Assembly (NCBI GenBank): GCA_950295325.1
Contig: OX485803.1
Coordinates: forward strand, 28,954,001 to 29,018,000
Source: Polytrichum commune
Taxonomy: Eukaryota > Streptophyta > Polytrichopsida > Polytrichales > Polytrichaceae
Reading direction: 5' to 3'
DNA length: 64,000 nt
Within the stretch, counting starts at the first letter, position 1. Each line of letters begins with the position of its first letter. The position numbers were made by a program, and so were the translations under genes. Below are positions 2,565-22,643 of this stretch, piece after piece. The notes under the pieces are model-generated. The model was given only the letters and a program-made list of their open reading frames with translations. It searched no databases and was not told where the DNA came from.

Positions 2565-2653
2565 CTAGGATTTTGGGCATAATCGGTCGAGATTCTATTG
2601 TTTCCAATATAGACTAGTTACTTGTTGACACCTCTTGGTTTTTCTTAATTAAA

Positions 2654-3005
2654 ATGCATAATACTTTGCAAATAATTAATTAACGGAGGTTTATTGGTTG
2701 ATGTATGGGTCCGAGCTAGGGCCGAGCCCATCGGATTAATTTATGGAGGATTAAATTAGATGGATGAGGCTTCTACCATTAACGGAGGTAGAATTAGATG
2801 CATAATGCTTTGCAAATAATTAATTAACGGAGGCTTCTGCCTGGTGGATGGATGAGGCTTCTACCACTCAAATAATATTGGGTGTCCTCATTAGAGAAGT
2901 AACCGAATAAGGGGTTGTGTACCCTTATGTACTAGAAACCTCGTCCCCTGTGGATATCGGATGAATTTCATCCATCCACCAGGCAGAAGCCTCATCCATC
3001 CCACC
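2654..3005. repeat. Small cluster of direct and inverted repeats
   Basis: A unit of about 40 bp (ctttgcaaataattaattaa with acggagg after it) occurs near 2654 and again near 2801. The words GGATGAGGCTTCTACCA also recur (about 2762 and 2850). The segment GGCTTCTGCCTGGTGGATGG (from about 2831) appears again in reverse complement at about 2975-2997, so the block can fold into a hairpin with a loop of about 115 bases. No gene or target duplication is visible. Confidence 0.5.
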
Positions 3006-5109
3006 CCACCCCTTCACCTTGGGTAAGAGAAACGCGAGAGAGGAGAGAGCTTGAAACAGCGTAGCCAGAAAACAGTTTCTTCCCATCTCCTCCGAGGCTC
3101 CGCCTGTTTTGCACTCTCTCTCCGCACGCACACAAATTGTGAAGAACCAATCGGCTTTTGTAGCAATGATTTGTGCCTGAGGTTTGGGAGTGAGAGGTGA
3201 GTTGGAGTGGAGGGCGATAATACCTACCTACGTGATGCTTGGGGGAGTCTGCTGGCATTATTCCAAGTGCTTGTAACATGAGGGTAGCAACAACGACCTT
3301 AACATTTAATGTTACAAAGAGCTGAGATCAAATGTTGAGTGAAATTGTGTGAATGAGTATGTGGGCAGGTCATGCTGTGCATGTTACAGACGCGGCCACT
3401 TTTTGCGGGCGTACCAACTTACCAAGCCTTCACAAGCATCAGTAAAAAGCAACCCTGTGTGAAGTTGACGTGTCTGTAGGGTTTCGATAGGGTTTCAAGT
3501 GTGCAGACTTGGACTTTGAGGTTGACGGTGGCGTGACAATTCAACAAAATAGGTTTGCCGACACTGCTAGAATGGGAACATCTTCGTACCTGACTCTCCG
3601 TCGCTCAAATTCTATTCCGAGAGAGCCGACTTCGAAAGCTTCAACTTCGTGCTCAAGAGTCAGTTTCCTCTTGTGAGATATTGTAAGGGGCTTGCTTAGT
3701 AGCTAGGGTGTCTGTAAAGGTCGAGTGATGGTTACAGTTATCTTATCATTCGAGTGAGAAGTGTAGAAATCATCACGACAAGTCGGTCACAGCCTCAACC
3801 CAGCAAGGTGTTTTTCCCTCTTCTTTTTTGGTTTTCTTTGGGTGGTTTGTCTTGATTCTGACATTTTTGTGAAGTTGAGATGAACTAACCAATCCTTTCA
3901 AATTTCCTCCGTGTGTGTGTTTCTGTCTATCCAGGCTCTACTTTGACCAGCTTGCCGAAACTCAGTCAACAAAGCGGCCACTTAGGTAGGTCTTCATTGT
4001 TCGATCTCTCATACATGTAAATCATCAGTTGAAAGAGGGTTAGAATTTAGACGACACCACATATACGAGTGTGTTTTATGGCACTCAAACTTCCCATCTT
4101 GCAGAACATCTATCTGTTGCAGTTCAATATCTGAACCTATGCTTTTAGAAAAAATTAATGTTTTTGGCGATCCCTTTTGTGAGTTGTTCTGGAGCTCTTG
4201 AATCCATGTACTTGTAGACTTCTGAGAATCGGTGCATACTAACCTCGAAGGTATTTTTCGTCTTATCTTTGTCCACCAGTGGAGGATACGTTTTCAAAGG
4301 AAGAGCAGTGTCCCTTTAGGAGTACACATAAGAATTATCAAGAGGTCAACACTCATTTCCATATCTTCGTTTCACATTGTAAACTTTAGGGTCCATTACA
4401 ATTTAGGTCCACTATACACACAGACCATGAACATGAATTTGTTAGGGCTCTTGAAACTCATCCAAAGGCCGCACTGTAGAATATTGAAATTCAATTTTGC
4501 ATGGTCACGTACAGGCCCTCAAGTGTGGTGTTAGACATACGTGACCAGGCTTGCAACCAAATGCTTTCATTCCTATAACACTATATTCGTTAAATTGAGA
4601 CTTTCTCTAGTCTCAAATTAATATATGGATCAAACAACATGAAGATGCCTGAAACTATATTGTCAACAATCTCAAATATATTAAATGTTCTAATATCCCA
4701 CACCTATGATGTGCGGACATAAGCACATATGGTAGAGCACTCAACACCAATTTCATCAACAAAAACACATTGGGTAGAGCATTCCAAACAAGTTTCACCC
4801 AAAAATATATATATAATGATTTCTATTATTAGCATGCTCCATAGAATATAGACATTGCAATATACAAAGTGCATGTAATAAATGCATATTTTTTCAATGG
4901 ACAATTTAGTCCCAAACTTAATAAAAAAATGAACTTCACATTTGTATTGAAATATAGTAAATGGATATTCATCCAATTCCAAAACAATATAGTATTCGTA
5001 AGTTCTACCCAAACTCTGCCCCAATTTTGAAGAGCACACATATGAGTAATATATGTTCGTAGAATTACTGTTTACACTATAATCATGCTAACACAATCCT
5101 ACCAACTTC
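3006..5109. other. Non-coding stretch, nothing recognised
   Basis: Both strands carry only short, compositionally unremarkable frames. The part from 4560 to 5100 is AT-rich. It ends at the stop codon of the minus-strand gene that starts at 8174, so its right end probably holds that gene's 3' UTR. Confidence 0.5.
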
Positions 5110-8100
5110 TCATTCAACGTGGGTTGCTTCTTCTGCGATCCGAGCAAGGTTGTCTTTTGCAAAAGTTATGTACTTTTGAGGGATGGACACTGATCCACTA
5201 TGATTTTTCCGTGGTTTCCATGCTATGAATATGGAATCTGTATCTACCCAAGATGGACCGTGCTCAGAATCCACCTTCCACCGAAAGTTAGGGTTTGTAT
5301 CCCAGCCTGTATAATGCCGAATCACATCTTCATTCCTTGCCGTCGGTCGGTAGTACTCCACTTGTATTTGTCGAAAATGAGGGCTGGAAGTTACAAAATT
5401 GGGTTTGGACAAAGCTCTTGCCACCCACATTGGCTTCACATATGTCTCGTCTCCAGGACGCAAAATGAGCATATATCCTTCATGACAATCCACTGCAATG
5501 CGGAAAGATGGTGGCGGACGACTACTAGCAGGCCCCACGTAATGGTCGTCCACATCAAACTCCTCTCGAACCTCTCCATTTCCCAAAAGACTAGCCTCTG
5601 AAGCTTGTACATCGACTCGTGTTTGTGGCCAAAATCCATGGCTCAAAGTATGAGGGCTATCTTGGTGGAGGTCTACCAAGGCGGCACGAACACGTGTCCA
5701 ATAATGTATCCAACTCCCATAACGATGCCAACATGATTTGCCAACATCCGCTAACTTCAAACTCTCCCAATATTGTATGAAGCCTGATATACCTTTCAAA
5801 ATATCCTCCAAATTCTTCATGGCTATTGGCTTACAAGGGCTAGGCTCCCCATCCGGTAACACGGTCTTCCCATCCGCATCCACGCGCCACACAAGAAGAC
5901 CCTCCGGCGGGCTCCAGTCTTGTGTCGTGCACAACAACTTGTATTGCATGGCCGGGACACCATCGTCACGCATGTAGAACCGGAATTGTTGTGCCTTCGT
6001 ATGCCCGATCAATCGGTGAGCTCCACTTCGAATATAAGGTTCTATAAATGCCTTGAAGTCTGGCACCTCCTCAATCATATGGGGGATGACGGGAACGTTC
6101 TCCAAATCCATGTACGACTTCATCAATAATGGGATTGTAGGAAAATCCTCCTCCCGCAACTTCATGCTCCACCGCCCAAAAGATGCATCAATATCATCGT
6201 GCGTGTGGCCTACCAATAGGAAGGACACAAAAACCTCCTTGAAAATGCCTTTCGCAACCAACAACGACCAATATGCAAATACATATTTGCTTTTATTGTC
6301 CTTGGCACAATTGTCCAATTGGACACGCAAAGTTGGAGGCAACTTCTTGGCAATCACGGGTTCATTGGGTGGCTCGGGCAACGAATGCAAGCATACATCT
6401 TTTCCATCCAACACCGCTACATATAAAGGTGTTGAACCCGTGTTCTCAAATAACAATCCTGAAGAATAGGCTGGTGGTTTATCTAAATCACGTAAAAACC
6501 TTGCAAATGATCCTATCGTGTGGTTTGAATCCGCTGGATACAAATCAAGAGCATAATAAGCAAACTTGACATCACCGTGTCCATGTGCAATCATTCCTGC
6601 AATGCCAACCCAACGTGATTAGCATCTATGTATGAATAAACCATTATGAAGGAATCCATGTTCTCCAGTACATCACGGAATAAAAAACCACAACATTTAG
6701 GGTATGTCATGACATTGTTTCGAAGTTCACCTGTAACCGATACAGGCAACTTAAAAAACCCATCCGTGGCCTTGATTCGATTTGCAAAACATGGGGAGGC
6801 TGTTTTGGCATGGTCCATTTTGTCATGGATGACCGTAAGAACCTCCAAGGGCCTGGAGATGGACAAAGCTCTATTTGTGTAGTAATCATTACGGTGTGCC
6901 TCTTGCATGTTTACGTGCTTGAAATAGTTCAATTGATGCGCTACATATGACTCGGTACCCATCGTGTGTGCATCCCGGAGGCGCTTCAACTTCTCGCAAT
7001 TAGAGCACCTGGCAAATTTTTCCCCTCGTCTTTTTATAATGTATTCGCTAAAGTTTTGTTTCTTGATTGCACTTAATTTTGACAATGAAATTGGCTCCAA
7101 CCCAATCTTCTCGCCAACTGCATTAACGTCCAACAATATGTCTTTCCATTTTGTGCCTGTGGGAAGAACTTTCTCCACAACCTTTTCACCGGTTGTGAGT
7201 GTGCGTGTTTTGTGCGGCATTGCATCAGCAAGGGGGACAATGATGGTTGCTAGAGTTGCCGTTGCTTGCCTTGTTGCTTCCCTAGGTTTCTTTAAACCCA
7301 CGTTCCCATGGTGACGGGACCGGCGGCCTTCCTTGGCATAAGCAGCTTGTCTATAGAAGTCCGCCTTCGACACACCGTAAATGGTGTACCATGCCTTACA
7401 ACACACGTCTATGCTTTCAATGGTGATTACCTTGCGACCCGTCCCATTCACATGTATTGCCCTATGGACATCAAGTTTTTTTATGGATCTTAGACGAAAA
7501 TCTCCAAGCCACATTTCTTCACGGATGGCCTTCAATTTATCCCTTGGAAACAATTGGCAACAACAATGCACACAACAATCCTTTGTGGCAACTTCTCTTA
7601 TGGACTCCTCCCCAAGTAGCCTTTGACGTTTACAATCAGTTGCAGATGGAGAAGGACGTGCCACAGTATCGTACTTTCTTTGACCCTTGCGTGGCCGCAT
7701 GTTTGATTGCATTTCCTTTTCGAGTTGCATGTGTCGTTGCTCATGTTCACGCAAGCTAACTCCATCAGTCGTGACATTCCTCAATGGCCACCTGCGGAGG
7801 GAGAACCTATGAGTGGGATCCACCTCAGAAGGAACGAGTGACTCCAATATGACAATCCCAACGTCCTCGGTGCCAAGCGGATTTTGATCAATGCAATCTT
7901 GTGGATGGGTGTTACGACAGATACCCTCCGCCACAACAACCCCATTGTCATTAAGAAGTAACACATCCAAATTCACCCATGAAGCTCTTGAAAGCACGGC
8001 ACACTCTGGAATGGGACAGTCCGGTACGGAACGCGAAGGTATATCGAAATGCTCTTCATCTGAACTCTCATCCATAGTAGCCTCCCCGACAATGTCTAGC

Positions 8101-8174
8101 TCTTCCTCAGATGCAGATGGCCAAGTGGCCATGTCTTCTCCAGACGAATACCCTCTTCCAGTATACCCATCCAT
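5110..8174 (-). CDS. Transposon-type RNase-H-like protein with QLDN and GHTHDDID motifs (DUF7869-like)
   Basis: There are two exons, 8174-6731 and 6596-5110, with a 134-bp intron having good borders. The splice joins ...PVSVTG to MIAHGHGD in frame, giving about 976 aa. The ATG at 8174 is the first after a likely splice acceptor (CAG-like TAG at 8180-8182), so an upstream leader exon is probable. Visible motifs, in order, are paired-Cys segments (DCCVHCCCQLF and RCSNCEKLK, possible zinc binding), HDKMDHAKT, VQLDNCAKDNKSKYVF and FLLVGHTHDDIDASFGRW. The spaced D/DN/D series resembles the RNase-H-fold core of a large transposon-derived family found in plants, algae and animals. The DUF7869 label is from memory and uncertain. 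The frame is uninterrupted, so it may be recently active or domesticated. A palindrome array lies just upstream. Confidence 0.7.
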
Positions 8175-8366
8175 TTTGCCTACACACATGAACATGGAAC
8201 CTTGTAAAGAATTGACAAAAGCTATAGGGTCCAATAGAAAAACACAAAAACCTTATCATAACAAATGTTGTATGAATATTATATCGATGGGTTCCAAAAA
8301 GATGGAGCGCACAACAGTTTATTCAGGATCCATCTATGCACATCCCCATTGTGTGCATGAGGGTGG

Positions 8367-8760
8367 GTTTGGGTCGAGCAACCCAAACCTCGTGATAGGA
8401 TGGGCCTGCTAATCCAGGCCCAACCCGTGACAGGGGTGGGTTTGGGTCGCTCGACCCAAACCTCACAATGGAGGTGGGCTTGGGTCGCTCGACCCAAACC
8501 TCACAATGGAGGTGGGTTTGGGTCGCTCGACCCAAACCTCACAATGGAGGTGTGTTTGGGTCGAGCGACCCAAACCTCGTTACAGGATGGGCCTGCTAAT
8601 CCAGGCCCAGCCCGTGAGAGGGGGTGGGTTTGGGTCGAGCGACCCAAACCTCGTGACAGGATGGGCTTGCTAATCCAGGCCCAGCCCGTGATAGGGGTGG
8701 GTTTGGGTCGCTCGACCCAAACCTCACTATGGGGGTGGGTTTGGGTCGAGCGACCCAAAC
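8367..8760. repeat. Palindrome array 1 (eight copies) upstream of the 5.1-8.2 kb gene
   Basis: There are eight copies of GTTTGGGTCG, two bases, CGACCCAAAC, with central CT in four and AG in four, plus minor arm changes in the first and third. They are spaced about 36-75 bp apart, separated by GGTGGG-rich linkers. Three linkers also contain a second hairpin with arms GGGCCTG and CAGGCCC around CTAATC (about 8404, 8587; a one-base variant near 8662). The array begins about 190 bp upstream of the minus-strand gene's ATG, in its probable promoter or leader. Confidence 0.9.
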
Positions 8761-9463
8761 ATTCCGCAAATTCCGCCTTAAATTGCGGTAATCTTCCATA
8801 TTCAGCTACGTGGATACTAATTGGAAGAATTCAGGCCGTGCATGGCTGTTGTAATTAGCTACTCATCAACGGATGCATACACGAACCTTGCACTCCACCA
8901 CTACTTGAGAGAGCTTGCAACCATTTCAGAATGGAGAGATGAGAAAAAAGGAGCAAAGTTTGGGGGGTTTGGTACTTTATACTACCCGCCTCCGCCTTGG
9001 CCTTCCTCTTTGGATCCCTTTCCCGCCCGAACGTAAACCCTAAACCTAAGTTCAAACCTTATGACAGAATTTCCCGCTTCTTGTTGGTAATAGAGCATCC
9101 ATATTTAGCTTGCCTCTTCGTGGCGCCAACCATCAAATGACCTTGGACAACTAACCTCCTAATTCCGCTATTAAATAACTACACAAAATATGATGTGTGG
9201 ATTTGATTATATGTAGTGTTGTTACCACCAGTGTCCGAAAAGTTATTGAAGTTATTGAGGTTAATTGCCTACCTCTTTAAAAGGGCATAGGCTATTTCCC
9301 TCATGGCATAGGTTGCATCCTACAATATCAAATTTTTGTAAGTTGAAAACCTTTTGAGTTTTTAAGTTACCTGCCAATTGCCTTTAAAACTAATTTTTAG
9401 TAGGTTAAAATCCTTCATATCTTTTAATGTTGTAGGCTTTAAATTCAAAATTTGAGTACTAAG

Positions 9464-9524
9464 TGGTATCCTTGGCAGGAATTGAACCTGGCTAAGCCCT
9501 TCACCACGTTTGAAGGCCAAGGAT
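9464..9524 (-). ncRNA. tRNA-like mini-structure (61 nt), possible SINE head or truncated tRNA
   Basis: On the minus strand a perfect 7-bp acceptor-like stem (ATCCTTG ... CAAGGAT) is followed by ACCA at the 3' end. Inside are a stem-loop (CCTTC ... GAAGG) and a T-arm-like hairpin containing GGTTCAATTCC, which matches the polymerase III B box. Only one arm remains where a normal tRNA has the D and anticodon arms, so this is not a standard tRNA gene. It could be a degenerate tRNA, a SINE head or chance. Confidence 0.35.
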
Positions 9525-10633
9525 TAACCAACTCCTTTTTAAAGAGTTGATTATAAGTTATGAAAGGTTGCTAAAATTCAAATGAGTTTAAGGGTGAAAG
9601 TCCTCACCATCTTCTGATTCAACCTCTATGCGGTGATGGGGCTTGGGCTGTGGTATTTGTAAAGATCGACGGGGAGGGAGTCAGGGCTATTATTGATATC
9701 CGCCTATGTGCCACTCAAGAGCCCCGAGTATTAGCCTAAAGATATGTACTTAGGCCAACTAATTTCCCAATTTGAAGAAGGATGAATGGCTAAAATCCGC
9801 TCTTTTAAAAACTTTGTAGGCAAAATTTCCTACATGTTTTTTACCACATAGGTTGATATCCTATGTTTTAAAATTGTCCATAGGCTCTTTGTCCTACACT
9901 TTCAAAATTTTATAGGCTAAGTCACAAATTTTGTAGGCTGCATTTACACTAGCCTTAGGCTCTTGGCGGACTATGGTTACCACCCTTACATGCTCAACAT
10001 TAATTTTCAATCCTATGACAGTTAGTGTTAGAAGTAAATGTGTTGCTACCTTCTACTCTCACGTATATTTCTTCTTTTCACATCCTTACTAACACTAAAT
10101 TCAAACATGTCAATGCCACATATTACTATAGCTTACATTTAATGTTTATTACTTTCATATGGTTATTGATATATTGTGTATTCACTTGTATTTAGTGTAT
10201 CAAACACTAAATATCATACTTATTGTAGTTGTGTTTTGTACCTATAGTTTTTATTGATTTGGCTTGCCAAAAAAAATGTAGTCAACTTTATTTGTTTTAA
10301 CAAATGTTTGATGAAAAATCTAAACATATATAGTTGTATCTATTCAATGCAAGTTGAGTAGAACATGTCCTTAAATACATGTTGGTGTGTTCTAGTGTCA
10401 CTACACTAAATAAGATATTTAGAGATTTATACACTAAATATGAACGCATCTACGACGTAACATAACATACATAACAAACATAACATGAAATGTAACCAAC
10501 GTTCATGTTCATGAATTAGACTATTGTGATATCTATATACATTTGTTTTTAGAACCACAAGCGACTTGGCCCCCTCATTTGACCTATGCGCCATTCATTT
10601 ATGGCTTCGAGTGCAACAAGACACATTTATATA

Positions 10634-10679
10634 CCCTAAACCCTAAACCCTAAACCCTACACCCTACACCCTACACCCT
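10634..10679. repeat. Interstitial telomeric repeat
   Basis: Several head-to-tail copies of the plant telomere unit CCCTAAA pass into variant units CCCTACA. Such short internal runs usually arise from repair of double-strand breaks or ancient end fusion. A hAT-type element starts 24 bp downstream. Confidence 0.85.
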
Positions 10680-10702
10680 CGTAGTTGTTCAGGGTTGCTT
10701 CC

Positions 10703-11251
10703 CACGGGTAGGTCACTTAGTGCATTTTAAAAACGACGTGCGGCATAATATAGAGAGGATTGAAATCATTTGAAATAAAAATTATAAAGGAATTCCAAAT
10801 AATGAAGGGGCCATTAAATGTAGACAATCCCATTATAAGTAAGTTAGATGGACATAAAATGTGGGCCATTATTTTTTTGTAAAATTAATATAGGGGCTGA
10901 AGATAAGGTTCCTAGAAGGTATGTTTAGTATAATGTTTGCTATGGTCTCCTATGTGTTTTCTTCATAACTTTGTTTGCAATGATATTATTGTTTGCACCC
11001 TTCTTTGTTTCCATGGTTTCCCTTAACAAGAAGTAGATTAGCTTTTATTACTTAAAAGGAATATAGAGTACAAAAAATTGCAGTGACTTGGACAATATAA
11101 GTAATGGAAGGGTGCAAACAAATGGGCCATTTTTGAAATTCAAGTAATTATAGGGAGGCTTTAATTCAACCCTTGAAGGTAAATAGCCCCAAAACAAAAA
11201 ACCCTGAGCCGCACGTGGTGCACAAAAATGCCTTAGAGTGACCTACCCGTG
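10703..11251. mobile_element. Element D1: hAT-type non-autonomous transposon
   Basis: The left end CACGGGTAGGTCACTTAG is inverted at the right end as GAGTGACCTACCCGTG. Flanking 8-bp sequences TTGCTTCC and TGGCTTCC match at seven of eight positions, which fits the 8-bp duplication of hAT elements. The 549-bp body has no gene. Subterminal sequence is shared with element D2 (45557-46819), including a GCGGC-like motif next to each end (cgtgcggc / gccgcacg). Confidence 0.75.
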
Positions 11252-12289
11252 TGGCTTCCATATAGAACACCATCTACTGTAATTTGTGCCTCATTTCCTA
11301 ATAAGATATGTTGTTTAATATATGTGGAGGGATCATCCAACAACAAAGTGATTGCTTAAATGGCTTCATATAATGTTGAACTCCACATATTAGTATTTGA
11401 TAGCTTCATATTTGTATACATGGTGCTTCTCTCATTTACTATCACTATATTCAATATTTGTAGACTTTATCTTGTCTCAACTAAATATATGAACAACAAC
11501 AACATTGTCTAATGTTTGGGTCGTCCTACCTAAACCATCTTCATATGAGTTCTTAATTGGGTTCTTCAGCAAAAACACCCGCTTCAATATATTTGTATCT
11601 CATAAATATGTAAACTTGTAAATAAGTATGTTAATGTTCCATCATGCTATAAATCAAACAACATCTTTGTTGCTTTTCGCAAACAACAATGATATTAAGT
11701 TGTCAACACTTAATATTGCATAATTCCATATTATAATGAATGACACTACATAAACTTGTATAATTAGATTTAGTTCAATGGTATGTGTTAACGGATCCAT
11801 CGTAGGCTATAGCATTGTCCTTTACCAACAACCTTCATAGATAATTACAATATATAACTCGAAACCATTCATTGTGTAAATGGTTACCATAGTTATATTA
11901 TTCCATTATGTAATTGCCTACGAGGATTGCAATATAATTATTAAATACTCCTCTTAGTCTAGTATCTATCATTCTCGATTCATGCATATGTGTAGATTAC
12001 TAAAATTACAAAACCAATACAGTTTCATTATTTGATATTAGCAAATCCATCGGGGGACCATTAAATTAAAAACCTTAGGCTATAAAGGTTTTTTAGTATC
12101 CTCAAGGATGGTATGGGATAGGTGGCTAAAGGATACCCACCTGCGAGGCCTATCGACCGTCGATGGGCCTGGGGCTCTCCAATGGCTCAGATTGTGTATT
12201 CGTTTGGGCCATGGAGCGCCCCATGACACGTGGCGGCCATGAGCCGAACGGACACGAAAGGCGCCGGCCCGAATGGGTCCCGCCCTTGA

Positions 12290-12540
12290 GTGACCTTCCC
12301 CCTTTCACTCTCCCCTCCGCACTTTCTCCTTCTCTCTCCTCCGCTCCAAGCTCCTCCTCCTTTGTACGTTCCTCATACTTTCTGGAGGCACCGCCGCTCT
12401 TGAAAGCGCCGCCTCCTCCCTTGCATTCTCTCTCTCCTTGTCGAACTCGCATTCCCTCTCTCCTTCCCTCTTCATCATTATCTCATTGTCTCTTTCACTC
12501 CTCCTCTTCTTTTGATCTATTTTGTTGTTCATTGAGTGCG
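12290..12540 (+). promoter_or_regulatory. CT-rich leader region, probable 5' UTR/promoter of the ParB-like gene
   Basis: A strongly pyrimidine-rich plus strand (tctctctcctt, tccctctctcctt) is a texture common in plant 5' leaders. A possible leader intron would run from a donor near 12982 (aag/gtgatt) to the acceptor ttgcag at 13816-13821, directly before the proposed ATG. The palindrome cluster at 13168-13797 would lie inside that intron. The transcription start is not resolved. Confidence 0.35.
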
Positions 12541-13167
12541 CATTGACCGAGTTCTGAGTGTAGTATGAGTTTAGGGTTTGTTTTTGTATTAAAGTCTATA
12601 CATTTTAGCCATTTCAGAACGTCTTTGTTGTTTTGGAGTGTGAGTGTTGTTTCAAAGTGGTTGTGTCAGTTCCTCCTGGTCTTAGAAACATTCATGTGTG
12701 AGTGTAGAGTGATTTCGGAATTAGAATGATTGTTCGAAAATCAGTGTGCATGTGTGGCCTTCAGATAGCTTTTTTGTTCATGTTTGTAAACACTTGTTAC
12801 ATTCAGAGTGAATGTTTGTGAGGGATTGTTTAATTCTGAGTGAATGTTTGTGAAAGCTTCTTCAATTCAGAGTGAATGTTTGTGAGGCGTTCTTAGTTTT
12901 CTGATATCCAATCCTTTCTAGAATCAGCTTCCAAGACTAGCTTGTTAGAACTGCTTCCAACAGCAGCTTGTTGTGTAGTTTGCAAAGCAAGGTGATTTCT
13001 TCAACTTCTTTATGTGTGTCAATTTCTTTAGAGTTTCGCAGCATCTACAATGCATAAGCATTGTATATGCTGCGTAAACACATTATAAAGGTCTCTGGAA
13101 TCAAAAGTGTTTCGAGAGACGACCCAAACTTCAATTTGAAACCCTAAAACACTAAACTCTGCAGCTG

Positions 13168-13797
13168 GTTTGGATCGTTCGACCCAAACTCTAAAGATGG
13201 TTTGGGTCGTGGGCGCCAATCCATCTGCAGAGTTTGGGTCGCTCGACCCAAACCATAAGCATTGTTTGGGTCTAGGGTTTAGCCAAACTCCGCATCAAAT
13301 GTTCATTTATAATTAATTTAATCATCATCTTGGGTGAATATCTAACCCTATCGACCCAATCCATCTGCAGAGTTTGGGTCGTTCGACCCAAACAGCACAT
13401 GAAATGGTAATTCATAATTTAGGTAATCATCATCTTGGGTATGATCTAAGGCCATAGCCGATCATTCCATACCGCTACAAAGTTTGGGTCGAACGACCCA
13501 AACTCTGCGTAAATTTTTACTGCTTACGAACAATACTTACACTTATAAACAACAACTCAAACACCCAAGCAATAATGAAATGACCCACAACTAGAACAGT
13601 AGCTCGTGATGATTGTTGTATCCATGAACTTAAAGATTGGTTTTCGTAGCCAAATAATATATTATTCATTAGCCATTGTAGGCACAGGTTTGGGTCGTTC
13701 GACCCAAACCTGTGAAAAGTAACCCCATATATAAATGTTACTAAACCCAGACATAAGCCTATATGATTTGAAAGAGTTTGGGTCGCCCGACCGAAAC
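13168..13797. repeat. Palindrome array 2 (six copies plus half sites) in the leader of the ParB-like gene
   Basis: Six copies, at about 13168, 13231, 13372, 13482, 13688 and 13776, have centres TT, CT, TT, AA, TT and CC. Two carry a single arm change (TTTGGATCG at 13168; ACCGAAAC at 13776). Single arms without a partner occur near 13120, 13200 and 13264. Unlike arrays 1, 3 and 4 the spacing is irregular and the intervening sequence is not repeated. Confidence 0.9.
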
Positions 13798-13821
13798 TAA
13801 CATATGTATTTCTACTTGCAG

Positions 13822-15150
13822 ATGCCCCCCAAGAAAAGACCTGGAGAACAATGGTTCAAGCCGGCACCAGACGTGATCTGGCAGGAGCACGAAACTCCTA
13901 AAAACCAATCCTACGTAGCAAAAGAAGACATTGTAATTGCATGGTCCTTTCTTGTAGTAAAGGCAGCTCAATTCAAAATCCTCCTTGTTTTGAAGGTTGG
14001 CACGGAGGAGCAACACACATGGGATGCTTTGACGGGATGGGAGGTGGCATCAGTTCATGCTCTAGGAGAGCACGTTGACGTCATCCTGGAAAACTCTTCT
14101 CTGGAAAATGTGCACATGTTCATGCATGAGCAAGCCGAGCCATTCGATCCGGTATACGTGAAGGAATCCTGCGCTGAGCCAGACATTGTTAAACCGGATA
14201 CAATCTTCATAGATGCGATCATTTCAAACACGAAGGTTGCAACCAGGTTCACTAAACTTAAGCAGGCAATCAACGCAATAAACAAGACCCAGCAAAGCAA
14301 GTCAAAATCTCAACAAGCTGTGAGGCGCAAGGGGACTGCTGAAGAGGGCGCAGGGTCGTCAAGACCTCAAACAGTGAGGAAGCCCCGACCGGTTCCAGCT
14401 GACTCGAGGAGAACAACACCTACGGCAACTCCTGCTGATAGTGAAACACCGACGCCATCACAAAGCCGGCAGACGACACCATCTAAGAGGCCGAGAGAGT
14501 CAGTATCTGCCATGACAGATGAGCCTGTTTCACCGGAGCTACGTATGCCCAAGCCCGGGGAAGGAGTGGAGCCATCGGAGATCCAGAAAATACTCAACAA
14601 TTTCGACACCAAGTGTTTACATTGTTTTTTCATGGGCAGAGAATTCAAGTTTGATGTCAACATCGCACAATGCCACCTAGCGCCACCAGAGAAGTGCGTT
14701 CGGGCAAAGGAAGATGCGTATGTTGATTGGTTAATCGCCCAGATGGTGAGCGACCAGTTTAAACATGATAGGCAGACTATTGTTGTCATGCCTCAGGGAC
14801 ACAAAAGAATGCCTACACCGGATATGTGGCCTTCTATAGAGAAAGGCGATTTTTGGCTGATTGACGGTCAGCACAGTGTTGAAGCTTCAAAGAAACTTCA
14901 ACTGATGACGGAGTGGAATGATCCTAATGGTCTAAAGGAAAAATTGAAGGTATGGAAGGCATTGGTCGTGTGGTCGGACGACGAAACCCGGCTGAGCGAT
15001 ATCTCCCGCTATTTCAACATGAATAACAAGAAGCGGGCATATCAAGCTTCTTGGATTAGGAACATCATGGCATCGCGGGATGTGTGGGAGTTCTACGGCC
15101 GGCCTCCCAAGGAAAGGGAGAATGCAAAAGACAAGAATCCAAAGTGGGAG
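13822..15150 (+). pseudogene. Composite gene, exon 1: ParB-like DGQH-motif domain
   Basis: The ATG at 13822 follows a splice-acceptor-like ttgcag, and the exon ends at a GTGAGC donor after 443 codons in phase 0. Residues 1-150 are of unknown fold. About 155-260 is a Ser/Thr/Pro/Arg-rich linker. About 265-440 carries a segment with FWLIDGQHSVEASKKL (Asp at residue 348), followed by SRYFNMNNKKRAYQASW. ParB/DndB-type domains typically show a hydrophobic strand, DGQHR and a following helix; here Arg is replaced by Ser. In bacteria and phages ParB-like domains are often joined to DNA methylases, and the next exon looks methylase-like. I infer DNA binding or modification, probably for a mobile element. 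The gene as a whole carries stops downstream. Confidence 0.6.
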
Positions 15151-15173
15151 GTGAGCATTGTTTCTCAAACAGA

Positions 15174-15395
15174 GTTTGGGTCGCTCGACCCAAACTTTGT
15201 GTTTCTTCATACAGTTTGGGTCGCTCGACCCAAACTTTGGGTTTCTTCATACAGTTTGGGTCGCTCGACCCAAACTTTGCGTTTCTTCATACAGTTTGGG
15301 TCGCTCGACCCAAACCTTGTGTTTCTTTATACAGTTTGGGTCGCTCGACCCAAACCTTGTGTTTCTTCATACAGTTTGGGTCGCTCGACCCAAAC
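15174..15395. repeat. Palindrome array 3 (six copies) inside intron 1
   Basis: Six copies, all with centre CT, recur every 39-41 bp with the same linker (a t/g-rich piece, then tttcttcatacag). The linker ends in a pyrimidine tract plus CAG, so every unit brings a splice-acceptor-like sequence directly before the palindrome. The actual acceptor used is inferred to be ttgtgcag at 15501-15503, because only it continues the frame in phase 0. Confidence 0.95.
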
Positions 15396-15503
15396 CTTGT
15401 GTTTTAGTTTGTGTTTGTCTACGCAGTTTGTTGTTCATCATTTTTCTTCTTTGTTTGGAAACAACATATTGAGAATTAACACGCATTCTATGCTCTTGTG
15501 CAG

Positions 15504-16835
15504 CTTTTCAAATACCAAATGATAAACAAGTTCTCCTCAATTAACAATTCAAGTCACAAGCAAAAGAAGTACAATGAGCTAAGAGGAGAGATCTACTTGA
15601 TTACATCATCCGACATGGTTTGGCAGAAGTGGAAGACAGTGTTTGAGAAACACGAGACAGGGGATCTCATGGATCCTGACACATGCAACCTCTTCAACTC
15701 GTCCTCTCGATTCAAGGCGATGAAGCCTCTCATGAGAGAATTCTTTAGAAGTCTGCAGGGTCTTTCGGAGGCGGAAATGGGGAAGGCGGCAACGCACATC
15801 TTGCACAACAACCCGACCCCTAAGAGATTTTGGGTGTACCCCAAAATAGTCTTCACCAAGCCGAAATCCTTTGTTCCTTCATGCTACACAATGAAGGAAT
15901 GGGCGGAGAATAGGAAGAAGAAAACAACGATCGTCCCGGAGCTGCAGAAGCTAATCCCGGAAAAGAACATTTTTGTCGATGACGAGGTGAACGAGGTGAA
16001 CTGGAGAGCGTTCAAGGCTGAATACAACTTCACTATTGCATCCATGGCAGCTCTGATCAGGGAGGCAGGAGAAGACTTCCTAAAGTCAAAACTGGTGAAG
16101 GGTGGGAAGAACCTGGCTCTTCCAGAACACTCGACGCGTGCCTTCTCAAACTTTATAAAGGAGAAGAAGATTGTAAGTTTTGAGGGGGATGCGCATTTCA
16201 ACCTTGTCACTTTTGACCCTATTAAAATCCAGGGATGGCCCGGCCTTGATTCCAAGAAAGAAATACGAGTAAGAGCAGCGGACCGGTTCCCCTTTGGTAT
16301 AATAGACTTCCGGAGCATTCCTGGGAGTACGTTTGAGGGCATAATGGGTACACCCTTCTACGAGCCCTTCATGTCGAAGTTCGTGGAGTATGCAAGCCCT
16401 AAGCTTAGGGAGGTCGATATGTGGCTGTGAATAGTAGAGGATAGGAGAGCAGAGCAGGTGTATGAAATTGTGAGGAAATTGCAGCCTGAGTATGCGGTGT
16501 CTAAGTCTCACTACATTGTTGCACCGGCGGAGGGGGTGTACACGACACTAAAGGACAAGAAAACCAAAGTCATGAATTTGTTGTGCTTGTACTTTGTGTT
16601 CAAAGCAACCTTGCTGAAGGTGGAGAACCACCCCATAACCCGGATGCAGAAACTATTCCAAGTTCCAGAAGGCCTGGGCGCAAGTAAGTCCCTCTACGAC
16701 GAGGCAAAATATGCCATATACCATTCGGACGAGTTGCGGATGGAATTCTATCTCCGAATAATGAGGGCCTTGACGAGAAGAGGGGACTGTATATTCAACG
16801 TCTTCGGCGGCACCAAGCCCGTCTTCGCTGGCATG
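15504..16835 (+). pseudogene. Composite gene, exon 2: degenerate DNA-methylase-like domain, with a TGA stop
   Basis: The exon is 444 codons, phase 0 at both ends (acceptor ttgtgcag, donor GTAAGC). Near its middle is FGIIDFRSIPG followed by EPFMSKFVEYASPKLRE. This has the look of motif IV and the next helix of a beta-class (permuted) DNA methylase, but the catalytic DPPY-type tetrapeptide is not there. At the 3' end, CIFNVFGGTKPVFAGM resembles the SAM-binding motif I of the same class and continues across the splice as MLGLNVYSYVDLND. The order motif IV then motif I fits permuted N6/N4 methylases. A TGA at 16428-16430 interrupts the frame (MWL-stop-IVEDRRAEQ), and the same frame then stays open. 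A CGA-to-TGA change is the simplest explanation. Probably catalytically inactive. Confidence 0.55.
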
Positions 16836-16864
16836 GTAAGCTCCTTACCATAATTGTTTTCATA

Positions 16865-17030
16865 GTTTGGGTCGAGCGACCCAAACTAACACCGATGCTA
16901 GTTTGGGTCGCTCGACCCAAACTAACACCGATGCTAGTTTGGGTCGCTCGACCCAAACTAACACCGATGCTAGTTTGGGTCGCTCGACCCAAACTAACAC
17001 CGATGCTAGTTTGGGTCGCTCGACCCAAAC
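16865..17030. repeat. Palindrome array 4 (five copies) inside intron 2
   Basis: Five copies repeat every 36 bp with the linker taacaccgatgcta. The first has centre AG and the other four CT. The intron runs from the GTAAGC donor at 16836 to ttctgcag ending at 17129 and joins codons in phase 0. Confidence 0.95.
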
Positions 17031-17129
17031 TATAACCTTTGCAATTGATATTAGGTCTTGTATGTACTTCCCCTTTTCGGTGGAATCACATGTTATGCCA
17101 TATAATAACATCTGGTGGGATTTCTGCAG

Positions 17130-18629
17130 ATGCTGGGGCTGAACGTGTACAGCTATGTAGACCTTAATGACATCCAATTCTACAAGGCCCAAAAATCATT
17201 GGCGAAGAAGATGGATATACTAGACTGGATCCCTGGGAGCTACGCCGAGGAGACTGTTGAAGGGGGTGAGAGCCCGCTGGATAAGGCGAGGCGTGTCAAC
17301 CCTGAAGAGTTGGCCATAAGGGTTCCAGTTGCTGTACCAGAGCCTCTGGTCCAAGTGCATCCAGGCACATCCTCTCGGCGACCGCGTGACGAGGAGGGGG
17401 AGGAGGAAGAGGAGGATGAGGAGGTGGAAGAGGAGGAAGAAGAGGCTAAAGTGGAGGGCGAGGTCGAAGAAGGGGGAACAGGTTTCACTCAGGAATCTGA
17501 AGCCCCTCAACGAAAGAAGGCAATGCGGGTAGCAACTCCACAAAGTAAGTTGGTGCCCGTCCTGACGGTTGATGATGCCCGCGACATGTACTCCAGGGAT
17601 GCGACTGCCGCGTTCAGGGAGAGGAGGAAACTAAAAGGCAAGAAACTCTATGGCGACTATGCCATCGAGGAGACAATTGCCATTAGCAGCGAAGACGAGG
17701 ACGACATGGAGCTCGCGAAACGGTTCAGGTCGGACCCTCCCTCTCCAGGTGCCTTCGCAGGGATGGTGAAGGTGAAGCCGGAAGTCCTCACCGTGCAAGA
17801 AGCCAACGAGAAGATGTTAAGGGACGAAGAACAACGCGTCCGCTTGCAAAAGGCCGCTGCTGAAGAACCCTCAGTGCGGAACGAAGTGGCAGAGCTAAGG
17901 GCTCTCTTATTGGAGCAAGAGCGACTGCGGGCATTGGCGCAACCTCCAACTAGTGCGGACTTGATCACGCAAGTGATTCGAGGCATGTGGGCGCAGGGTT
18001 TGGTGGTGGCTCCCCCGGGCTCATTTCCACACTTGCCCCCCGGCTTCCCTCCCTAGAACATTCCTCCGCAGCCCGTGCCGCAATCCTCCTTCAGCTTTCA
18101 GCACATGGTTCCCCCCCACGTCCGTCCGTATCCGCCGGTTCAACAAACGGATGACCCCAATATATGGCGCCTTCCCGGGTCTTCTAGACCTGTGACCCCC
18201 CCACCACTTCGGCCGCCCCTGGTGATCCCCCCGCCCCATCAGCAGGACGACCCCCACATGTTTGGGTCGTCCGACCCAAACCCGCCCCCCCTTACAGTGC
18301 AACAAGGCCAATCTCATGATGCACGAGAGTTTGGGTCGGCCGACCCAAACCCCGTTACCGCTCAGTCTTCAATGGACCAGCATGGGTCTGAAAGAGACAC
18401 ACCCATGCCTGATGTTGAAGGACCTCGAGGGCCTGGTGATACCTCTACTCCTATCCCAATCGATGAACCTATGCATGATGCACATGCGGAGGTTGGGTTA
18501 GGAGAAGGTCCTGACACTGAGCGCTTGCAGGAGAGGGGTGCTGACATCGTCGGAGAAGGCGGTGGCGAGAGAGAACGACAAGCGGAGGCGGTGGAGGCTT
18601 CCATGGCGTCCAGGCATGACCAGGGAGAG
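17130..18629 (+). pseudogene. Composite gene, exon 3: end of methylase-like domain, acidic and coiled-coil linker, Pro-rich part, with a TAG stop
   Basis: The exon is 500 codons, phase 0 at both ends. It starts with MLGLNVYSYVDLND, completing the methylase-like motif I region. Next come an acidic run (EEEEDEEVEEEEEE, codons from about 17391), a charged region, and a heptad-like coiled coil (EVAELRALLLEQERLRAL). The last third is very rich in Pro, Gln and His. A TAG at 18054-18056 lies in frame between GFPP and NIPPQPVPQ, so CAG-to-TAG is likely. Two copies of the palindrome are translated in this exon. The donor GTAATA at 18630 is followed by another palindrome in the intron. The low-complexity regions suggest flexible tethers between domains. 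Confidence 0.5.
18260..18350 (+). repeat. Two palindromes translated in frame
   Basis: Copies at 18260-18281 (centre TC) and 18329-18350 (centre GC) lie in the same reading frame of exon 3 and encode FGSSDPNP and FGSADPNP respectively. These centres occur nowhere else in the window, while the arms are unchanged. Confidence 0.9.
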
Positions 18630-18651
18630 GTAATACACTGAGACCTCCTCA

Positions 18652-18673
18652 GTTTGGGTCGCTCGACCCAAAC
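18652..18673. repeat. Single palindrome copy in intron 3
   Basis: A perfect copy with centre CT lies 23 bp after the proposed exon 3 donor. Further on the intron has a run of about 16 C residues (about 18764-18780). Confidence 0.9.
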
Positions 18674-19123
18674 TCCTGGTCTATTGTCTTGTTGCCGTGG
18701 TCGTGTCCCCCCTAGCTAGGAGGAACTGCCCCCACCCCGTCCATCCGCTCTCGCATCCCTTCAGCCCCCCCCCCCCCCCCGATGATCACTAACGTCGCCC
18801 GTCCCACGATTTTACTCGAACTTGGAGGCGTGCACACAATTTTGTAGATGTTGAATTAGGATAGTTTGAACGGATCGTTCAACGCGGCTTCGCACCCCTA
18901 GGCATTTTGTACATAGAGCATTGCAAACAATAAAATTATTAATTTGTGCCCTTATGTTTGTTTTCGTGTTCAAATGTATATTTTTTCCTCTTGCCCCCTC
19001 TTGCATTTGTATGGCCGCCTATGCATAGTGGTTCTTGTATTTTTCACAGAAAATATTGTATTCACTTTAAGTGGACATAGCATGACATAGTCTTCCCCCG
19101 CCTTATGTCGCTCGTCTCCACAG

Positions 19124-19936
19124 GGATCGGAGCATAGCGTCACGGCTCCCCGCCGGGCCTCTCCAAGAAGCGAGGAAGGTAGCGCGATGGTCCCCCCCAT
19201 TTTACCCGTTCCACCTTTGCCGCCTAAGACCCGGTTCCTGGTGTTAGACCTCAACGGGGTCCTCGTCCAATGCGTTCATTGCCCGAGGACCCCCACGGTG
19301 CCCTTTTGCAAGCCCGAGGACGCGAATTACGACGGGCCGCCCACGTTCATAAAGAGCAAGCTAGTTCACCTCCGCCCGTGGCTTCGGACCTTCCTCCAGA
19401 TCGCCCAACAACGATGGTGGGTGGTCGTGTGGAGCTCCATGAAGGCCGAGAACACCAATGCAGTCGTGGAGTTCATCTTCAAGGGCATCGAGCCCCCCTG
19501 CATGGTCCTAGCACAGGAAGCCTGTAGAATATTGTACACACCGGACGGCAAAGTCGTCAAAAAACCAAACAACCCCGCTTCCCCCCAATACCTCAAGGTC
19601 TTGAAGCCCATTTTTTGGGACCAGTGTCCGTCATTGATAGGTGTCCCCTACGACGTCCGTCCCACCCGGGAGAACACGCTCATGGTGGACGACAGCGCCG
19701 CAAAGAACATGTTGAACCCGACGGCCAACTTAATAGTTTGCCCTATGTGGACGGTCGAGAAGGTCCGGGACCGATTTTTGTTAGACCTTAGTAAATACCT
19801 CCAGGCGCTCAGGGGAAGCGGACTACCTGTAAACAATTTTGTTAGGAATAATCCGATAGGCGAGAGATACTTGGATCCACGAGACCATTTGTACAGAGAG
19901 TTGTTCTCTCACGCGAAATTTAACAAGCTCATTTGA
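19124..19936 (+). CDS. Composite gene, exon 4: FCP1/NIF-type HAD phosphatase domain
   Basis: The acceptor tccacag at 19117-19123 continues the exon 3 frame in phase 0 (QGE / GSEHSVTAPRR) into an uninterrupted frame ending TGA 19934-19936 (about 271 codons). An internal ATG at 19187 could start it as a separate gene. HAD motifs visible are FLVLDLNGVLVQ (motif I, second Asp replaced by Asn as in some plant NIF-like proteins), WWVVVWSSM (motif II with Ser), FWDQ near a preceding Lys, and NTLMVDDSAAKN (DD of the last motif). The family removes phosphate from proteins, classically the RNA polymerase II C-terminal domain. Whether this copy is active is unknown because the motif I Asn is not the usual DxDx(T/V). 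Confidence 0.7.
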   Translation, partial: GSEHSVTAPRRASPRSEEGSAMVPPILPVPPLPPKTRFLVLDLNGVLVQCVHCPRTPTVPFCKPEDANYDGPPTFIKSKLVHLRPWLRTFLQIAQQRWWVVVWSSMKAENTNAVVEFIFKGIEPPCMVLAQEACRILYTPDGKVVKKPNNPASPQYLKVLKPIFWDQCPSLIGVPYDVRPTRENTLMVDDSAAKNMLNPTANLIVCPMWTVEKVRDRFLLDLSKYLQALRGSGLPVNNFVRNNPIGERYLDPRDHLYRELFSHAKFNKLI

Positions 19937-19940
19937 GGCA

Positions 19941-19942
<2 letters not shown>

Positions 19943-19982
<40 letters not shown>
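19943..19982. repeat. (GT)n microsatellite
   Basis: About 18 GT repeats directly follow the stop codon of the phosphatase exon, ending in GCGCGC. It lies either in a 3' UTR or in an intron before the next exons. Confidence 0.95.
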
Positions 19983-19984
<2 letters not shown>

Positions 19985-20087
19985 CCGCCCACTTTGTGTA
20001 ATATATGCTTCATATGTATCTTGATTTTCACGTGCTCTAGCAAACCCTCTTCCTTTGGGTTTTGTTTCGTTTCATTTTTTGCGCCAG

Positions 20088-20894
20088 CGTTTGGAGCCCT
20101 CGATTGACATTGTCAGCGAGTCAGACTTGGGGAGCTTCTTCTACGAGACCGTTTATGACGCCGCGTCAACCATTGACTACTCCAAGGAGCCTATTGACGC
20201 CGGCGTCGTCGATAGCCCCCCACCCAAGCAAATCTTACGGCGATCTCCATCCCCGTCGCCGCTCAAGGGCATAAATCGCAAATGCATCCGGACATCCCCC
20301 TCTCGGCCCGGCGGAAGTATTACACCTCAACGGCGGTTGCGGATGGACGCACGGCCAACGAAGAGTGGAACCCTTCCTATTCCTTTGCGGGACGCCTTGC
20401 CCCTCCTTGCCAACTCCGATGGGAACGCCCCCGGTGACAAGGTGAACCCCCCCCCCCTCTCTAAAACATGGTTAACCGCGCATTACAATCATTTTGCACT
20501 TAAAAAATGATCGTGTGACACGTTTGGGTCTTCCTCCCTAAACTAACACATGTGGTCTTGCAATGACGCGTTGCAGGTTGCTCCCACCCGTAAACCTATG
20601 CGGTCTAGTGCGTCCATCGAGTTCGAGCGTATGTACGCCATGACCAGAAATGCGAGACAATCCACTTCATCGTATTCGAATTCTTCGACGTATATTTCGG
20701 GCGGCCGACGGACTCCAAAATGTCTTATGGATGGCGGTCACCCCAAGAATGGCTATAGTCGCGGGGCGGAGATTTTCAGGAATGTTGAAGCAATGCGAGC
20801 AAAAGAAGCCGCAGCAAAAGAAAAAGAGGCAAAAGAAAAAGAGGCAAAAGAAAAAAAAGCAAAAGAAAAAGAGGCAATCTCCGAGGCTAGATAG
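20088..20894 (+). CDS. Two further exons, probable 3' part of the composite gene or a separate small gene
   Basis: Exon 20088-20441 begins after ttgcgccag and ends at GTGAAC. Exon 20577-20894 begins after gttgcag and ends at TAG. Both junctions are phase 0. The first encodes a piece with DIVSESDLGSFFYETVYDAA and then a Ser/Pro/Arg-rich tail (RRSPSPSPLK). The second has SIEFERMYAMTRNARQ and ends in a 5-residue repeat (AKEKE, four or five times, from a 15-bp DNA repeat). No domain is recognised. I could not find a donor that links them cleanly to the phosphatase exon, so membership of the same gene is inference from strand, distance and phase. Confidence 0.4.
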
Positions 20895-21290
20895 GCCATA
20901 GTAGGCGTAGGGTTTTGGGCCATAGGCAACATCATTTTGGGTCGCACTATCCAATGTATGTGTGGTGTTAGCATGCTATGCATTTTACATGCCATACTTT
21001 GTATGTTTTTTTTGCAATAATATAAGTGTCACATGATTTCCCCTTCAATATGGTCCAAGGTTTGGATTGCCCTAACTAAACCATCACAAATATGAGTTTG
21101 GAATATTTTGTATGTTATATTATATTGGTTCACATAGTTCCCCTTCAATATGGTCTAAGGGTTTGGAGTGCCCTACCTAAAACATATTCATACAAGATCT
21201 CATATTTTGTGTGTGATAATATGAATGTTTTAAGATTTCCCCTTCAATTTGGCCTAAGGTTTGGATTGCTCATCCTAAACAATCCCAAAT
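20522..21290. repeat. Degenerate relatives of the palindrome
   Basis: Four sites keep one recognisable arm and a weakened partner: gtttgggtcttcctccctaaac (20522), ggtttggattgccctaactaaacc (about 21059), gggtttggagtgccctacctaaaa (about 21160) and ggtttggattgctcatcctaaac (about 21258). They recur about 100 bp apart with shared flanks (ttccccttcaatatggtct), so an older repeat is decaying here. Confidence 0.6.
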
Positions 21291-21299
21291 ATGAGTTAT

Positions 21300-22643
21300 T
21301 AATGGGGTTCTTGTTCTAAATACCCGACACAAAGTGTTCGCATCTTACAACTTTCTCCAATATGTGTTCCATTTATCCTTGTTCTTATTTATGTGAATGT
21401 CTCAAAATGCCCAAAAAGTCTCAATTTAACGAATATAGTGTTCTATCATTTGCAAGTGGGCCCTTGCATGCAATAATTCGTAATAAATCAAGGGTTCTGA
21501 GATTCCGAAGTGTCATGGTCTACCAGTTTTGTCACATGCTAATCAGTTGAAACCAATTCGGGGTCTCATCTTGTCCTCCAATGTCTCTATGTGGATGTAG
21601 GCTTCCCCGGCAGGAATTCTTTTAACATGTTGTTTTTTCTGAACTGCGTCGTGATAGAATACCGGGGTTATTGTTTTGGTGTGTTACAAAGAACTTCAAT
21701 AAAATGCCTTAAGTTACATTCTCCACAGAGGATGAAATGAGCCAACTCAGAGTAGCACTCTAGAAGGTTAATAGTGTGCGAGTTTGTGCAACAGTGGCAA
21801 AACATTTGTATAGCTTGGCTCTTCACCATTGTTTATACGAAAAGTGAAAGCAAGGAGAGCATTCGAAATCTGTGAGCTCTGTATTTGGCAAATTGGATTA
21901 TGGAGGATAATTGCTATTATGCGATGGATGCAAAATCTGGGATTCTGCATTCTTGTATGCCTTGCATGCCTTCTAGATTTCTGACAATTGCATTATTGTT
22001 GAATTTTGGATTTTTCTTGGAAGTTCAACCCTAAATTGGGCTACGGTTAATAGGGTCGCTCACTTTAGTTCACTATGCAAAGCTGGTTGAAGTTAACAGC
22101 TATCCACATTGTGAAGTTTCATCAATAGTGTCACAAAAGTGTTCAGTTTTCAACTGTCTGCAACAATAACTTTTGCCATGCATGCTTGAAATATGTTTGT
22201 TGAACTGTTATGGCATTTTCTTCACCTCAAGGATCTGATATCTTATAGACAATTTGTTGCTAGAGTCTGGTTTCCGAAGTTTAATCCTGCATAGGGCTTA
22301 TGGTTGTCAGGGTTCCCCACATTGGATGTGCTATTCCAACTGTGAGTGATTTAAAGAAACTTCTTTTGACAAATTTCAACCCTTTTCTTTTCAGACTTTT
22401 GGCAGTAAATGAAACGAATGGGCGCATCAATCCACTAGTTGTGATTCACAACTCAACTTGAATAAGAGCCAGGTACGAGAACAAACACTTTGACAAATAT
22501 AGCTAAGTTTGGCAAATAGTTCGATTGTGATCTCTCAGTGACGAAGCAGCATGTCAGATACTCATGTTACGGAACAGACCTCCTTTACCCATTGTACAAT
22601 TTGATGATTTCAGTGGAAGAACATAAGGTACGAGTAACAATGA
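21300..22643. other. No gene recognised
   Basis: The sequence is AT-rich with short frames only. It could hold 5' exons of the oxygenase-like gene that follows, but no exon can be defended. Confidence 0.5.

Follow-up and report, generated by a model that had tools for sequence, protein, structure and literature searches.

The 64,000-nucleotide stretch of Polytrichum commune DNA analyzed here (GenBank assembly GCA_950295325.1, contig OX485803.1, positions 28,954,001 to 29,018,000 of the forward strand; hereafter, the window) contains many copies of a 22-bp palindrome, which we call P1 and which consists of two 10-bp arms around a 2-bp centre (GTTTGGGTCG-NN-CGACCCAAAC). We found that P1 is confined to transposons in the 100 genomic places listed, that its placement within these elements is conserved, and that its arms are constrained. 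With a probability that we put at about 0.55, each palindrome serves its own transposon family as a recognition site for a DNA-binding protein that the element itself encodes; the best candidate for this protein is the product of a gene on the same element, termed gene A. To our knowledge, few transposon-encoded systems that recognize their own DNA by means of a motif have been found, VANC being the best described.

P1 arrays and their host transposon

A scan of the window that allowed up to three mismatches detected 29 P1 copies at 8367-18673 (24 exact, four with one mismatch, and one with two), as against none in 100 dinucleotide-preserving shuffles. An earlier note on this DNA had described about 28 copies over 10 kb, in four clusters and as singles, with nearly constant arms and variable centres, and all of this was confirmed, the centres being CT/AG, TT/AA, TC, GC, and CC. 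The note had also stated that linkers differ completely between clusters and that the clusters therefore did not arise by copying one long unit. Linkers are indeed different from cluster to cluster; inside three of the four clusters, however, they are near-copies of one another (tandem repeats of 36, 38/74, and 40 bp, with 93-98% matches), so that tandem duplication made these three arrays.

The palindrome had moreover been tied to two genes. Both of these proved to be parts of a single 16.9-kb DNA transposon at 4577-21442, which houses all P1 copies of the window, and the link is one to whole transposons. The ends of the transposon are marked by an inverted repeat of 31 bp around positions 4574 and 21445, revealed by self-comparison of the window. 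The first 25 bases of the terminal repeat occur genome-wide as 333 forward and 343 reverse exact copies; among the 100 ends listed, there were 39 neighbouring convergent pairs, 24 of them spanning 14.4-18.5 kb and 38 spanning less than 45 kb. Exact 4-bp target duplications were present in 12 of 12 elements, namely, the window element (CTAT), the element TE2115 introduced below (ATAA/ATAA), and ten further pairs.

Distribution of P1 across the genome

The genome searched (407.8 Mb, 64 contigs) contains 9,231 exact P1 copies and none of a backward-read control, itself a palindrome of equal composition; a scan of IMG/VR viral contigs with P1 returned none. The 100 P1 places listed cover the first 2.2 Mb of one contig. 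By hand count, 77 of them lie in three elements with the window-type terminal repeat, at C1:616-626 kb, 1180-1191 kb, and 2115-2126 kb (TE616, TE1180, and TE2115; the right repeat of TE1180 is mismatched at 3 of the 22 bases scanned). The remaining 23 lie in another transposon type, which we read as Mutator-like: 10 in a recognized Mutator-like stretch, four in loci whose DNA is similar to that of this type, and nine in a locus (L045) tied to this type via an adjoining repeat common to both. None of the 100 was found outside the two transposon types, and among these places P1 is not evenly scattered; even scatter was one of the refuting outcomes named in the earlier note.

The Mutator-like element (L046:2832-6734 on the minus strand and L047:265-3731 on the plus strand, C1:2150001-2170000) carries its P1 arrays between minus-strand open reading frames (ORFs), where an intron probably lies, as well as upstream of a gene on the plus strand, which has a DGNHR motif and a stretch that, as read from the sequence, appears methyltransferase-like. 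Its gene pieces have no similarity to those of the window-type element, and one of them gave a weak SWIM zinc-finger match (E 0.076) that fails the cut-off. An hhalign comparison of A with the compared part of the plus-strand gene gave a probability of 0.2%, over the DGNHR stretch, which is not significant.

Conserved placement and constrained arms

The A exons of the four window-type elements compared (the window element, TE616, TE1180, and TE2115) are mostly 73-80% identical, with one TE616 exon-3 piece at 61%. In all four, P1 occupies common locations: the regions upstream of A and of the ORFs on the minus strand, the first two introns of A, two sites within coding exon 3, and the sequence just beyond that exon. 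Periods and linkers differ between elements, with 36, 38, 40, 57, 63-64, and 78 bp in various copies and places. For the lone P1-like site at 11514..11535 in the window, no counterpart was found in TE616 in this comparison.

This placement bears on the possibility that P1 comprises internal binding sites or transposition enhancers for the product of the DUF7869 ORF, a candidate transposase. A 22-mer like GTTTGGATTGCCCTACCTAAAC is found near the right end of the four elements, and the same protein family might read both it and P1. However, P1 lies in the interior, in introns and exons kilobases from the ends, and P1 is also carried by the Mutator-like element, where other gene pieces stand in place of the transposase; we regard this explanation as quite unlikely. 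Terminal transposase sites were rejected, as P1 is interior and the right end bears a different, related 22-mer.

Constraint on the arms was evaluated in coding exon 3. Fifteen of 18 further exon-3 stretches cover the P1 sites (L052, L059, and L065 were dropped) and, together with the first four, make 19 copies, in all of which the two exonic sites are 69 bp apart. With kinship among copies ignored, mean pairwise diversity in exon 3 was 0.033 for the arms as against 0.192 for the flanks and 0.47 for the centres, and at third codon positions it was 0.069 in arms versus 0.262 in flanks. The observed P1 position was the most conserved of 369 exon offsets, its next neighbour ranking second at 0.041. 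Third positions differed between the window element and TE616 at 131/300 in flanks and 0/16 in arms, between the window element and TE2115 at 117/308 and 0/16, between TE616 and TE2115 at 123/300 and 0/16, and between the window element and TE1180 at 119/308 and 1/16; in the young pair TE1180-TE2115, the figures were 16/308 and 1/16. Flank third positions have hence diverged by 38-44% in four of the five pairs compared, the fifth being young. In A exon 1, synonymous divergence (dS) exceeded 2 or had reached saturation in five of the six pairs, with nonsynonymous divergence (dN) of 0.09-0.14; for TE1180-TE2115, dS was 0.23 and dN was 0.04.

Selection on the amino acids alone (FGSxDPN) was rejected, because arm third positions are kept and intronic copies have the same letters. 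Selection on a dimer-type site, which the earlier note had proposed, is well supported by these sequence comparisons: exon arms stay near-constant beside diverged flank third positions, and variation in the centres greatly exceeds that in the arms, whereas centres as conserved as arms were the other refuting outcome named in the note. The note's alternative, that the palindrome spreads by itself, is not needed, since element transposition and tandem duplication suffice. Six of the 19 copies form a subfamily in which, at both exon sites, the right arm has T instead of its innermost C, and for this reason the P1 core may comprise nine bases per arm.

Selfish or neutral repeats, propagated by replication slippage, template switching, or gene conversion and read by no protein, would fit the origin of three of the four arrays by tandem duplication with near-identical linkers inside the cluster. 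They would also fit the young 40-bp arrays, in which the arms are no more invariant than most linker positions: mean non-consensus there was 0.006 in arms versus 0.052 in linkers, a weak contrast in which 2 of 18 linker positions account for almost the entire linker value, and the comparison was left unused. Yet the arms of the isolated exonic copies are retained even as the third positions beside them diverge, and a homogenized 22-bp tract with unchanged flanks would be hard to obtain through gene conversion, so that we consider selfish spread very unlikely. Hairpins in transcripts, acting as splicing, small-RNA, or export signals, might be suspected from the many P1 copies in gene A introns and exons, whose 10-bp arms could pair. 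A 2-nt loop, however, forces at least one pair open, and 614 P1 copies (up to four mismatches) showed 283 one-sided changes versus five two-sided complementary ones. Because one-sided changes so far outnumber complementary ones, it is the sequence of P1 rather than pairing that is kept; a hairpin function seems extremely improbable, and as the main reading it was rejected on the rarity of paired changes.

A second palindrome that changes with protein A

Distant homologues of gene A suggested a second palindrome, P2 (TTACGNACG-NN-CGTNCGTAA). The A homologues run on into introns, so that palindromes show up as peptides in their tails, P1 as FGSxDPN, WVxRPK, or LGRxTQT. Such P1 peptides were present in the tails of 15 of 47 exon-1 matches, 13 of 43 close exon-2 matches, and 0 of 27 far exon-2 matches; in whole proteins they were present in 16 of the 47 exon-1 matches, over an identity range of 33-95%. 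The far exon-2 tails show LRTxVRK, TNxRS, and YERxFV, which are three frames of the palindrome TTACGAACG-NN-CGTTCGTAA (P2). P2 peptides occurred in 8/27 far exon-2 tails, 0/47 exon-1 tails, and 0/43 close exon-2 tails (at most 0.03 in shuffles), a count that is descriptive, as the patterns were drawn from the tails themselves; the genome search is the test. Searching the genome with TTACGNACGNNCGTNCGTAA yielded 5,113 exact P2 copies and none of the control, with arrays among the matches listed, and the prediction made from protein tails held.

We read one P2 element at the DNA level, a 5.25-kb stretch (L069) in which A is 36% identical in exons 1 and 2. It contains 15 P2 (up to four mismatches to the 22-mer used) and no P1 (up to three mismatches), and its P2 sites occupy the same gene parts, with copies in the region upstream of A as well as in the first two introns and in coding exon 3. 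In this element, the switch between P1 and P2 goes with the divergence of A. As a separate observation, the tails of two moderately close homologues, P0101 and P0108 (69% and 67% identity), are readable, as peptides only, as P1 with an identical change on both arms, which suggests that the palindrome may change gradually.

A further explanation is that the transposons recruited a palindrome-specific host factor, such as a transcription factor, an insulator, or a chromatin protein, that differs by family. A common host factor would simply explain P1 in two unrelated transposon types. However, all 100 listed P1 places are in transposons, and a host factor alone leaves unexplained why the palindrome changes with the A protein at unchanged element locations; we judge it unlikely.

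Gene A and the proposed mechanism

The limits of the gene A exons were set from ORFs and splice signals. The predicted fold of exon 1 resembles ParB, Noc, and KorB (ParB/sulfiredoxin, or ParB-CTPase, fold), and that predicted for exon 2 resembles N6/N4 DNA methyltransferases. The window copy has a single in-frame stop in exon 2 (16428-16430), whereas exon 2 of TE616 is open. None of five A ORF pieces gave a Pfam match at E 1 or better. Alignment A1 comprised 27 of 47 homologues, and alignment A3 comprised 26 of 70.

If A is the reader, a dimer of A would read the two 10-bp arms and tolerate any centre, tandem duplication would build arrays within introns, in upstream regions, and at a small number of places in coding sequence, and the protein would gather along its own element via these arrays. 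Binding of A to the palindromes is inferred, as is its function. By analogy with known systems, the likeliest function of A may be anti-silencing, namely, keeping its own element expressed against silencing, and protein and palindrome would change together between lineages. More tentatively, and with rather less confidence than in a recognition site as such, we propose a eukaryotic transposon self-recognition system, in which a ParB-fold/methyltransferase-fold fusion loads on family-specific 22-bp palindromes distributed through the element and protects or activates it, lineages escape each other by joint change of palindrome and protein, and the unrelated Mutator-like transposon takes advantage of the system by bearing an identical palindrome.

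Several observations weigh against assigning the palindromes to A. P1 occurs in the Mutator-like element even though the gene part compared there is not detectably related to A; this may reflect hijacking, a shared host factor, or a distant A relative in that element. P2 placement was read at a single element, L069, and the palindrome may also vary along with DUF7869 and further genes of the element. As regards the folds, at E <= 0.001 Foldseek gave a single match to exon 1, whereas its best match to the exon 2 model, at 0.005, was above that limit, and sequence-only searches supported neither fold convincingly. The catalytic motif (D/N/S)PP(Y/F/W) was present in 0 of 70 exon-2 homologues, and because of this we do not claim A as an active enzyme; the methyltransferase-like domain is probably degenerate. 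IDGQHS, IDGQYS, or INGQHS was found in 37 of 47 exon-1 homologues (10 unmatched), at a position equated by eye with the P motif, and ParB carries an arginine-bearing P motif there. A site-reading helix-turn-helix in A was neither found in sequence-only searches nor recognized among the structural matches.

Relation to known systems

VANC proteins are anti-silencing proteins of Arabidopsis VANDAL transposons that bind their motif and cause loss of DNA methylation. In the VANDAL/VANC system, as described in PMC5735166, a short motif (the 9-base YAGTATTAY) builds up in introns, intergenic regions, and upstream non-coding parts of the transposons; its sites are often tandem repeats that vary between related copies, the target motif and the encoded protein differ between families, and the VANC family is DUF1985/DUF287. 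P1 similarly lies in introns, intergenic, and upstream parts, with two coding-exon sites as well, it forms tandem repeats that differ between related copies, and the palindrome differs between families along with A, one P2 element having been read. In contrast, P1 is a 22-bp palindrome, whereas the VANC motif is short and non-palindromic, and A has ParB-like and methyltransferase-like predicted folds and belongs to a different family by Pfam: at a threshold of E 5, neither DUF1985 nor DUF287 appeared in the family lists obtained with 28 sequences of exon 1 and 27 of exon 2. By analogy, the arrangement may work like the VANC system or like ParB-parS, although by its protein it is not a member of the VANC family.

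ParB-parS, Noc, and KorB are bacterial CTPase DNA clamps whose sites are palindromic. The window-type element resembles these systems in the ParB/sulfiredoxin fold predicted for A and in the many palindromic sites on the same element. It differs in that A sits on a eukaryotic-type transposon with introns and is fused to a methyltransferase-like domain, has IDGQHS in place of the usual P motif, and yielded no helix-turn-helix. VirB of Shigella, a ParB-derived protein, acts as an anti-silencer. VirB is named among ParB homologues in a survey that covers phage fusions of the ParB-CTPase fold with an N6N4-methyltransferase (PMC12704722). As described there, such fusions likewise join a ParB-fold and an amino-methyltransferase-fold domain in one mobile-element protein, whereas A is without the usual catalytic motif and is accompanied by palindromic arrays; no words beginning with "plant" or "transpos" occur in the main text of that survey. 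As to the element itself, Sola DNA transposons, according to PMC10741241, have 4-bp target duplications and have been reported from a moss, and the window-type element is similar in its 4-bp target duplication, its terminal inverted repeats, and its large size.

If the proposed self-recognition is true, it would represent a second, independently built system, motif-based self-recognition by transposons would evolve repeatedly, and a bacterial-style clamp fold would enter transposon biology. P1 and P2, together with the two A proteins, would provide a ready pair for studying the joint change of DNA-binding specificity and targets.

Feature map and further observations

Table 1. Features of the transposon and its palindromes, in window coordinates.
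Feature	Position	Strand	Remarks
Left terminal inverted repeat, 28 bp	4577..4604	+	CTAT target duplication at 4573-4576
DUF7869 ORF, candidate transposase	5110..6594	-	Pfam PF25273, E 2.1e-41
547-aa ORF	6591..8234	-	Overlaps DUF7869 ORF; kept in three other copies
P1 cluster 1	8367..8760	none	8 palindromes upstream of minus-strand ORFs; spacing 38/73-74 bp
Lone P1-like site	11514..11535	none	2 mismatches; identical letters in TE1180 and TE2115
P1 cluster 2	13168..13797	none	6 palindromes directly 5' of gene A; irregular spacing
Gene A exon 1	13822..15150	+	Predicted PH-like domain, disordered linker, and ParB/sulfiredoxin-fold domain with IDGQHS
P1 cluster 3	15174..15395	none	6 palindromes, 40-bp period, gene A intron 1
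Gene A exon 2	15504..16835	+	Predicted helical part and N6/N4-methyltransferase fold (TE616 exon modelled)
P1 cluster 4	16865..17030	none	5 palindromes, 36-bp period, gene A intron 2
Gene A exon 3	17130..18629	+	Single in-frame stop 18054-18056 in window copy
Exonic P1 site	18260..18281	none	Coding exon 3, peptide FGSSDPN; 0-2 mismatches in 19 aligned copies
Exonic P1 site	18329..18350	none	Coding exon 3, peptide FGSADPN
P1 site	18652..18673	none	Immediately beyond exon 3 donor
NIF (FCP1/SCP-like) phosphatase ORF	19187..19936	+	Pfam PF03031, E 2.1e-15; in all 4 copies compared
Further conserved ORF	20055..20510	+	No Pfam match
Right terminal inverted repeat, 28 bp	21415..21442	-	CTAT target duplication at 21443-21446

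The 547-aa ORF had no Pfam match and is possibly the upstream portion of the same gene as the DUF7869 ORF; a literature search found no paper naming DUF7869. In TE616, the DUF7869 ORF is broken by an insertion (L039, about 1533-3050), and similar sequence adjoins P1 in L045 and L001. When the window element is compared with TE616, A exon 1 is saturated for synonymous changes, versus a synonymous divergence of 0.15 in NIF, and between the window element and TE2115 this divergence is 2.2 in A versus 0.28 in DUF7869 and 0.63 in NIF; these unequal values suggest that modules may have been exchanged between elements.

The GTTTGGATTGCCCTACCTAAAC-like 22-mers, which are related to P1 and distinct from it, lie at 21060-21280 in the window and recur in the three other copies compared. 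Two other palindromes were present in arrays: CCTGTGCG-TTAA-CGCACAGG in the Mutator-like element at L046:7776-9372, mostly with a 64-bp period (543 exact copies genome-wide), and GTGTCTCG-GTAC-CGAGACAC at L045:132-2085, in units mostly of about 139 bp, the centre being mostly fixed in both. Among the titles listed in literature searches, no paper on the palindromes described here was found. The window transposon also contains a telomere-like ACCCTAA repeat (10633-10679), and elsewhere in the window there is an inverted duplication of about 2 kb (28808-30796 and 41385-43378, 94.6% identity) with more inverted pieces around it.

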